Source of the DNA: an uncultured Formosa sp.
Lineage (GTDB): Bacteria; Bacteroidota; Bacteroidia; Flavobacteriales; Flavobacteriaceae
NCBI GenBank assembly: GCA_913052445.1
Contig: CAJXDP010000003.1
Coordinates: 59,744-123,743, forward strand
Length of the DNA: 64,000 nt
Reading direction: 5' to 3'
Shown here: in pieces, positions 26,176-50,813 of the stretch
How positions within the stretch are numbered: the stretch's first letter is position 1
How the letters are laid out: every line of letters begins with the position of its first letter
Program-made: the position numbers and the translations under genes
The notes under the pieces: generated by a model
What the model was told of the DNA's origin: nothing
The model's input: the letters and a program-made list of their open reading frames with translations, nothing else
Databases searched by the model: none

Positions 26176-26206
26176 TTGCGTTATTAATTTTGGAATGTTA
26201 AATTTG
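26176..26206 (+). promoter_or_regulatory. Bacteroidota-type promoter of the zapB-like/zapA/6S/rny locus
   Basis: TTG (26176-26178), 20-bp spacer, TAAATTTG (26199-26206); matches TTG-N17-23-TAnnTTTG. Confidence 0.7.
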
Positions 26207-26229: not shown

Positions 26230-26520
26230 ATGAGTAAAATAGAGCTAATTGTTAATTCTTTAGATGAAAAAGTACAAAGAATCATGTACGAACTCGCCGA
26301 ATTAAAAAGTGACAATTTAGCATTAAAAGAGAGACTAGTTGATTTAAATACTAAGAACTCTAAGCTTTTATATTCGCTAAAAGAAAAAGAGAATGAATAT
26401 GAAACACTCAAAATTACAAATTCAATCCTTGGCAGTGACGAAAGTAAAACATTTACGAAACTTAAAATAAATACTTTAATCAAAGACATTGACGATTGTA
26501 TTTCTAAACTGTCTGATTAG
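26230..26520 (+). CDS. coiled-coil protein, ZapB-like
   Basis: 96 aa heptad-rich coiled coil, immediately upstream of zapA. Confidence 0.7.
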   Translation: MSKIELIVNSLDEKVQRIMYELAELKSDNLALKERLVDLNTKNSKLLYSLKEKENEYETLKITNSILGSDESKTFTKLKINTLIKDIDDCISKLSD

Positions 26521-26531
26521 AAAAAAAGCAA

Positions 26532-26834
26532 ATGAGTGAACAGTTAAAAATAAAATTATCGATAGCTAATCGAGTATATCCATTGACTATCACACCTGAT
26601 CAAGAACAAGGGCTTAGGTCAGCGGCTCAAAAAATTGATTCAACTATTAAGCAATTTGAGAAAAGTTATTCTGTCCAAGATAAGCAAGATGTTTTGGCAA
26701 TGTGTGCACTTCAATTTGCTACTCAAAACGAACAAAAAACAATTGATAATTCGAGTTTAAATGAAGATTTAGAATCCCGCCTAATTGCGATAGATAAATT
26801 ATTAGATTCACATTTAATCAATAACGTTCTTTAA
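26532..26834 (+). CDS. zapA: cell division protein ZapA
   Basis: LKIKLSIANRVYPLTITPDQEQGLRSAAQKIDSTIKQFEKSYSVQDKQDVLAMCALQFA. Confidence 0.9.
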   Translation: MSEQLKIKLSIANRVYPLTITPDQEQGLRSAAQKIDSTIKQFEKSYSVQDKQDVLAMCALQFATQNEQKTIDNSSLNEDLESRLIAIDKLLDSHLINNVL

Positions 26835-26849
26835 ATAAAATAAAGGTTA

Positions 26850-27017
26850 CTGCCTATATTGGTCACTTTTTGATAAACTCAACGGAAATTCTTTAAAATA
26901 GAGTACGTTTAAGTTGTAAAAGCATGCTGTCTTGCAACAGATCCTTGATCAGCTTTCCAGCTCTAAATCTTGTATTTATGGAGTTTATACAAAATCAGAT
27001 TGATGTAGGCTTTTTTT
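26850..27017 (+). ncRNA. ssrS: 6S RNA candidate (6S-Flavo-type)
   Basis: Not coding. Closing stem GCCTATATTGGTC (26852-26864) with GATTGATGTAGGC (26998-27010), 13 bp including G-U pairs; second stem ATAAACTC (26873-26880) with GAGTTTAT (26981-26988); large internal loop and apical hairpins; T7 tail 27011-27017; sits between zapA and rny. Confidence 0.82.
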
Positions 27018-27034
27018 AAATTAAATAATTATAT

Positions 27035-28609
27035 ATGGAAAATAATATTGTATTAATCGCTGTTGCAGCTCTTTTAGGACTTGTTTTAGGGTTAGTAATA
27101 TCAAAAGTCCGCGAAAAAAATAATGCATCGCAAGTAACTAAAAATGCAAAACGTGATGCTAATTCTATTATTTCAAAAGCCAGATCAGATGGAGAGGCGA
27201 TTAAAAAGGATAAAATATTTCAAGCTAAAGAACGGTTTTTGGAACTCAAATCAGAACATGAACAAGTTATTAATTCTAGAGAAAATAAAATAAGTGATGC
27301 TGAAAAGCGAACCCGAGATAAAGAATCACAAATATCTTCTGAACTTTCAAAAAATAAAAAACAATCATCTGATCTTGAATTAAAAATGAAAGATTATGAC
27401 CATCGCTCAGAATTATTAACTAAACGTAAAGATGAAGTTGAAAAAGCTCATAAAAGCCAAATTAAACAACTTGAAGTGATATCTGGATTATCTGCAGATG
27501 ATGCAAAGTATCAGTTGATTGAGTCTTTAAAATCTGAAGCAAAAGATGATGCCATGGTGTATGTTCAAGACATCATGGAGGAAGCCAAATTAACAGCTGA
27601 ACAAGATGCTAAAAAAATCATAATCAATACAATTCAGCGCATAGGAACAGAAGAAGCTGTTGATAATTGTGTATCAGTATTTAATATAGAATCTGATGAC
27701 GTAAAAGGACGTATTATTGGTCGTGAGGGTAGAAACATTAGAGCAATTGAAGCGGCTACTGGTGTAGAGATTATAGTTGATGATACGCCAGAGGCTATTA
27801 TATTATCTTGTTTTGATTCAGTTCGACGAGAGGTTGCGCGTTTATCTCTTCATAAATTAGTAACTGATGGGCGTATTCATCCAGCACGAATTGAGGAAAT
27901 TGTTAAAAAAACTCAAAAGCAAATTGAACAAGAAATCATTGAAGTTGGTAAGCGAACCGTTATTGATCTAGGTATCCATGGATTACATCCTGAATTAATA
28001 AAAACAGTGGGACGTATGAAGTACCGCTCGTCTTATGGCCAAAATTTATTACAACATTCAAGGGAAGTTGCTAAATTATGTGGAGTGATGGCTGCAGAAT
28101 TAGGAATTAACCCAAAGCTAGCCAAGCGTGCAGGACTTCTGCATGATATTGGAAAAGTACCAGATTCAGAAGCGGATATGGAAACTCCTCATGCAATTTT
28201 AGGAATGCAATGGGCTGAAAAATATGGAGAAAATATTGAAGTATGTAATGCTATTGGAGCCCACCACGATGAAATTGAAATGAAGTTTCTAATGTCTCCC
28301 ATCGTTCAAGTATGTGATGCTATCTCTGGCGCACGCCCTGGAGCAAGAAGGCAAGTTTTGGATTCATATATCCAACGATTAAAAGATTTAGAAGATATTG
28401 CTCTTGGATTTGGAGGTGTTCAAAAGGCTTATGCAATTCAAGCTGGCCGTGAATTGCGTGTTATTGTTGAAAGTGAAAAAGTAACTGACGATAAAGCAGG
28501 AAGTTTATCATTTGAAATTTCTCAGAAAATTCAAACAGATATGACTTATCCTGGCCAAGTTAAAGTTACGGTTATACGTGAAACACGTGCTGTTAACATT
28601 GCTAAATAA
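27035..28609 (+). CDS. rny: ribonuclease Y
   Basis: N-terminal TM and coiled coil, KH ([34 protein letters not shown]), HD domain ([10 protein letters not shown]). Confidence 0.96.
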
Positions 28610-29649: not shown

Positions 29650-29734
29650 GGAGAGTTGGCAGAGTGGTCGAATGCGGCAGTCTTGAAAACTGTTGAGGGT
29701 CACACCTCCAGGGGTTCGAATCCCTTACTCTCCG
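29650..29734 (+). tRNA. tRNA-Ser (anticodon UGA)
   Basis: Acceptor GGAGAGT/ACTCTCC fully paired, long class II variable arm, loop CTTGAAA with anticodon TGA, T-loop GGTTCGAATCC; CCA not encoded. Confidence 0.95.
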
Positions 29735-50738: not shown

Positions 50739-50813
50739 GGTGGTTGTAGCTCAGTTGGTTAGAGCATTGGTTTGTGGTACCAAGGGTCGCCGGTTCGAAC
50801 CCGGTCTTCCACC
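50739..50813 (+). tRNA. tRNA-His (anticodon GUG, bases 50774-50776; includes G-1)
   Basis: Cloverleaf with D stem GCTC/GAGC, anticodon stem TTGGT/ACCAA, T arm GCCGG-TTCGAAC-CCGGT, G-1 opposite C73. Confidence 0.93.

Follow-up and report, generated by a model that had tools for sequence, protein, structure and literature searches.

How is a 6S RNA gene expressed when it lies directly behind a protein-coding gene, on the same strand and with no promoter of its own in evidence? Of the RNAs that regulate bacterial RNA polymerase, 6S RNA is the best known, but to our knowledge the expression of its gene in the Bacteroidota has been little described. The question is raised by the gap between zapA and rny in an uncultured Formosa sp. 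(Flavobacteriaceae), contained in a 64,000-nucleotide stretch of DNA referred to below as the window, for which an initial annotation had proposed a structured RNA of the 6S-Flavo type, possibly processed from a zapA read-through transcript. The reading favored here, to which we assign a probability of roughly 0.7 on the basis of sequence comparisons, is that of a 6S-Flavo RNA without a promoter of its own, produced by boxA-assisted read-through of the zapA operon.

The features of the locus are collected in Table 1. Pfam profiles identify the flanking genes as zapA and rny, as had been proposed, and the gap itself (26850-27017) overlaps no open reading frame of at least 60 aa on either strand, in keeping with its description as non-coding. 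The start of rny lies 17 nt past the T-run that closes the RNA. The order zapA-6S-rny, on a single strand, was found in 91/91 loci with both flanks on the contig. The small open reading frame ahead of zapA is kept in most Flavobacteriaceae loci, and its position hints at a ZapA partner (ZapB- or ZauP-like).

Table 1. Features of the zapA-6S-rny locus, in window coordinates.
Feature	Position	Strand	Details
Predicted operon promoter, Bacteroidota sigma-A type	26176-26206	+	TTG-N17-22-TAnnTTTG pattern: TTG 26176-26178, 20-nt spacer, TAAATTTG 26199-26206
Small open reading frame (96 aa), first operon gene	26230-26520	+	without Pfam match
zapA, cell division protein	26532-26834	+	PF05164, 3e-18
boxA-like element CGTTCTTTAAATA	26825-26837	+	overlaps the zapA stop codon in the genus; conserved in relatives
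6S RNA (6S-Flavo), full predicted extent	26850-27017	+	fold, alignment, covariation
P1 closing stem, 5' arm GCCTATATTGGTC	26852-26864	+	pairs with 26998-27010
P2, 5' arm ATAAACTC	26873-26880	+	pairs with 26981-26988
Rfam 6S-Flavo core (RF01685)	26877-26986	+	86 bits, cut-off 85, E 3.8e-13
Central bubble, 5' strand	26881-26899	+	unpaired between P2 and upper stem in the tested structure; candidate pRNA template
Upper stem	26900-26964	+	Rfam consensus helices, covariation in each: 26900-26904/26960-26964, 26911-26915/26951-26955, 26920-26922/26944-26946, 26927-26930/26937-26940
Central bubble, 3' strand	26965-26980	+	unpaired in the tested structure
P2, 3' arm GAGTTTAT	26981-26988	+	pairs with 26873-26880
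P1 closing stem, 3' arm GATTGATGTAGGC	26998-27010	+	pairs with 26852-26864
T7 run, candidate intrinsic terminator with P1	27011-27017	+	directly after P1
rny, RNase Y	27035-28609	+	PF12072, KH_1, HD (Pfam)

The identity of the RNA was assessed by searching the whole window with Rfam models. The 6S-Flavo model RF01685 matched within the gap, barely above its curated cut-off, and this was the single match to the model in the genome assembly (1.73 Mb, 51 contigs). Two families, 6S and 6S-Flavo, had been put forward for comparison, and only the latter held, the general 6S model RF00013 remaining below cut-off at the locus (12.8 bits vs 46.4). No match to RF01693 (6S-Bacteroidales) was obtained in the window at gathering score; the only other Rfam matches in the window at that score were two tRNA genes, at 29650-29734 and 50740-50813 (+ strand). 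The score margin is thin at this locus; copies of the same genus score 87-92 bits, and the highest score among other family members is 116 bits. The assignment is nonetheless firm, since relatives score higher and, as described below, covariation is strong. Matches to RF01685 were found in 70/100 close relatives, comprising most genomes of the genus (those without a match are incomplete assemblies), all those of the family that belong to other genera, and some from other families of the order. A sample of the phylum gave matches only in the same family and in one other family of the order, apart from a single weak match with neither zapA nor rny nearby. The locus is intergenic and non-coding and belongs to the Bacteroidota, and the taxa with matches agree with those of the original description of 6S-Flavo RNA (Weinberg et al. 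2010, PMC2864571). The RNA in the zapA-rny gap is thus confirmed as an ordinary new member of this known family, and by virtue of this membership it would be expected to bind RNA polymerase holoenzyme and to template pRNAs.

The initial annotation had described a long irregular rod with a large internal bulge, closed by a 13-bp stem and followed by a T7 run, and its stems, coordinates and T-run all proved exact. The predicted fold of positions 26840-27025 has an energy of -43.8 kcal/mol (z = -3.26), which none of 200 shuffles equaled. Covariation was evaluated on an alignment of 69 distinct loci, against the stems named earlier (P1 and P2) together with the Rfam core helices. Standard pairs are formed by 95.4% of the alignment cells, and changes on both sides of the pair were detected in 24 of 38 pairs, with every helix covarying, so that the rod and its central bubble are conserved; none of 500 shuffles reached any of the pairing or covariation measures, and pairing fell to 36-44% when the 3' partner was slid. 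The closing stem P1, which spans 13 bp including G-U pairs, is 95.7% paired in this alignment and P2 98.9%, percentages that lean toward the structure because P1 and P2 were named from the window sequence, which is itself among the aligned loci. The double changes are free of this bias, and they occur in 9 of the 13 P1 pairs (e.g. UA to CG, AU to GC or CG to UA). RNAalifold, given no structure, recovered P1, P2 and most of the upper helices. P1 and P2 are left unpaired in the Rfam model, yet both are supported by covariation, which implies a full RNA of about 165 nt with a predicted 5' end and a 3' end predicted at the T-run, a feature present behind P1 in nearly all relatives. An extended covariance model including P1 and P2 (R1) scores 162 bits at the locus, which is itself part of the training set. 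Applied across the phylum, R1 strengthened the known matches and retrieved the 6S copies of family f22 and a weak copy in family f17, with nothing convincing beyond these. In the genus, the 5' strand of the bubble contains ATTCTTTAAAATA (26888-26900, + strand), one mismatch away from the boxA-like motif discussed below; it is not kept in all relatives, and the resemblance may be due to chance.

Primary-sigma promoters of the Bacteroidota present a TAnnTTTG element near -7 and a further box near -33 (PMC9723704, PMC7366714). The corresponding pattern, TTG-N17-22-TAnnTTTG, was identified before the small open reading frame upstream of zapA in 69/69 Flavobacteriaceae loci, where shuffled sequences predict 0.7, and in none of 72 Flavobacteriaceae relatives within the 150 nt preceding 6S. 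Likewise, none of 66 loci carries the pattern between 6S and rny, a gap of mostly 17-26 nt. A dedicated 6S promoter was therefore rejected as a conserved feature, TAnnTTTG with or without an upstream TTG not being in excess among the 72 relatives, as was an rny promoter inside or after the 6S gene, for which no excess over shuffles was observed. The remark that no clear dedicated promoter precedes the RNA consequently extends to the family, and the suggestion of read-through from a zapA transcript gains comparative support from the conserved promoter at the head of the operon and its absence before 6S. The 6S gene of the Flavobacteriaceae thus seems, as judged from promoter patterns, to have no promoter of its own.

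In the consensus of 72 Flavobacteriaceae loci, the region between zapA and 6S has CGTTCTTTAAAATA as its longest conserved block, located at the zapA stop and about 26 nt ahead of P1; the initial annotation had not mentioned it. The core of this element, GTTC[T/A]TT, occurs in the 60 nt preceding P1 in 63/72 of these loci, as opposed to 1.0% of shuffles and 1.4% of background windows, and most of the loci without the strict core differ from it by one base. The distance between the element and P1 is 25-27 nt in 53 of 69 loci (range 19-39 nt). In 55/72 loci the element starts no earlier than the end of the zapA stop codon, which excludes a by-product of zapA coding; in the remaining 17, including the genus of the window, it starts earlier. 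The boxA consensus GYTCTTTAANA, the NusB/NusE site, derives from a survey of gamma-proteobacteria in which non-coding RNAs were not considered (PMC5725501). The 72-locus consensus agrees with this gamma-proteobacterial consensus at every position, and the copy in the window, GTTCTTTAAAT, matches 10 of its 11 positions, the last being the exception. On this sequence likeness we infer that the element is boxA-like and a putative NusB/NusE site. boxA acts single-stranded, whereas the element is predicted to be paired to an intermediate degree (mean 0.40), which counts against this reading. The genome encodes nusB. A bare motif scan of the whole genome was uninformative, returning 29 sites with at most one mismatch against 20 for a reversed control, and the four sites inspected had no evident stable-RNA context.

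The 16S rRNA gene is absent from the assembly of the window genome, and the 16S leaders compared here come from related genomes. Leaders of the order carry related motifs, among them CGTTCTTTAAAATATT (L094, identical to the 6S-leader consensus), GTTCTTTGAAAATATTGG (L113) and GTTCTTTGAACATATTGG (L116). Within the genus of the window, 16S leaders carry GTTCATTAAACATA, some of them also GTTCTTTGATTAAT further up, and GTTCATTAAACATATTGA has a TATATTTG box some 50 nt upstream (L103, L105, L108, L120); leaders of other families contain GTTCTTTAAAATA or GTTCTTTGAAAATA. The T-to-A variant GTTCATT, present in 16S leaders, also occurs in some 6S leaders (L038, L039, L045).

Family f22 has zapA and rny near each other, 6S being located elsewhere in 7/7 genomes (E 1e-7 to 7e-3); the element is absent from all seven relocated genes, four of which adjoin a TATATTTG box, with no clear promoter box at the other three. 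That the element belongs intrinsically to 6S RNA is hence rejected. Another family of the class, f17, has the same element behind zapA in 4/4 genomes, and a 6S-like sequence is weakly detected (34 bits in one genome). Families f5 and f2 of the order retain zapA-6S-rny without the element, which is therefore not essential to this arrangement; in f5 (L083, L084, L086, L087, L091, L092), a GGGAA...ATTTTTTTTCCC hairpin-like sequence replaces it between zapA and 6S. Nearly all the loci compared in this work are related, and the counts are accordingly not independent. The 6S-like RNAs of f22 and f17 (L251-L257) fall under Rfam cut-offs, one f22 copy weakly matching RF01693 (30.8 bits, cut-off 60), the 6S-Bacteroidales family suggested in Rfam; Rfam coverage of Bacteroidota 6S RNAs looks incomplete.

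Leaders of other structured RNAs were inspected for the same motif. In the control set, 26/30 RNase P RNA genes have a promoter of their own; the motif appears in 2/30, both without a promoter. In these two (L259 and L268, the 60 nt ahead of the RNase P RNA), the gene is apparently directly behind a coding sequence and lacks a TAnnTTTG box. Among tmRNA leaders of the order (60 nt before tmRNA), the motif is present in 9/29 under a strict definition (L155, L157, L160, L163, L168, L170, L172, L178, L179) and in 14/29 under a relaxed one, with the promoter present or absent. tmRNA weakens the proposal that the motif strictly marks promoterless RNAs, since its genes can have motif and promoter at once or one without the other.

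The conserved GTTCTTTAAA block could alternatively be the site at which an RNase, RNase Y or another, releases the 5' end of an ordinary read-through 6S-Flavo RNA. Its usual position 25-27 nt before P1 is a plausible processing distance, and its loss where 6S occupies a separate site with its own promoter would be understandable, no release from an mRNA being needed there. The element nevertheless matches the bases of the published boxA consensus, and the related motifs in 16S leaders lie far from the mature end, so that we hold a cleavage site to be rather unlikely. We know of nothing specific to RNase Y in the GTTCTTTAAA sequence. The fairly constant spacing to P1 (25-27 nt in most loci) would also suit part of an unrecognized promoter, read by an alternative sigma factor and driving 6S directly; the TTACTG right before P1 is likewise conserved, and alternative promoter motifs exist in the Bacteroidota (PMC9723704, PMC7366714). 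Against a promoter stand the extremes of that spacing, the lack of a conserved companion box upstream of the element, the use of the TATATTTG box instead by relocated f22 6S genes, and the location of the related motifs downstream of promoters in 16S leaders. We consider this explanation quite unlikely.

The structure might also function mainly in cis, attenuating rny or serving as its leader, rather than in trans. With rny starting so close to the T-run and no promoter in between, the stem and T-run can limit rny expression. The RNA of the locus belongs, however, to a family of trans-acting small RNAs, the f22 6S gene stands apart from rny, and 6S transcripts have been reported in Flavobacterium psychrophilum (PMC9723704) and in Bacteroides thetaiotaomicron, there together with pRNAs (PMC7366714). 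A primarily cis-acting role is hence highly improbable.

The boxA-assisted read-through is inferred from the combination of a promoterless 6S gene, a conserved boxA-like leader and the contrast with f22. Transcription would start before the small open reading frame upstream of zapA, run through zapA and meet the boxA-like signal where zapA translation ends. Binding of NusB and ribosomal protein S10 (NusE) to boxA may then bring the polymerase into a Rho-resistant, rRNA-type antitermination state in which it could make the untranslated 6S RNA; in E. coli, NusB-S10 binds boxA in nascent rRNA, with protection from Rho (PMC10931766). The T-run after P1 would end part of the transcripts, some read-through supplying rny, and an RNase acting near P1, possibly RNase Y, would generate the 5' end of 6S. 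By analogy with known 6S RNAs, the central bubble is expected to mimic an open promoter and to occupy the housekeeping RNA polymerase until released by pRNA synthesis.

The E. coli 6S gene ssrS (RF00013), which resembles the present RNA in forming a rod with a central bubble, adjoins zapA as well, but it has its own promoters, and none is seen here. Among known systems, 6S-Flavo RNA (RF01685) is of the same phylum and shares core helices and conserved loops with the locus, to which P1, P2 and the T-run are added, whereas the Rfam model comprises 108 positions with unpaired ends; the boxA-like leader does not figure in the family description consulted (PMC2864571). The 6S RNA of Bacteroides thetaiotaomicron, for which pRNAs have been reported, shares phylum and general role with the RNA described here (PMC7366714). 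The boxA elements of rRNA and suhB leaders share GYTCTTTAANA and, for rRNA, a leader position preceding a structured RNA that is not translated (PMC5725501); the element at this locus differs in sitting between an mRNA and 6S RNA. In the literature searched (an open-access subset), neither the promoterless operon setting of 6S combined with a boxA-like leader nor any paper bringing together boxA, NusB and 6S RNA was found.

The inclusion of P1 and P2 provides a fuller 6S-Flavo model, of about 165 nt compared to the 108-nt Rfam core. In a broader form, which we advance tentatively and at slightly less than even odds, 6S would be carried along by the zapA operon without a promoter of its own throughout the Flavobacteriales and in one or more further families of the class, its synthesis depending on the rRNA-type Nus complex via a leader boxA. 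A conserved boxA would make 6S a non-ribosomal RNA target of this complex and would account for the escape from Rho of an untranslated RNA that follows an mRNA. If this is true, leader boxA elements may be wider among structured RNAs of the Bacteroidota (tmRNA and some RNase P RNAs), and the production of an RNA polymerase inhibitor would be coupled to the machinery of ribosome synthesis.
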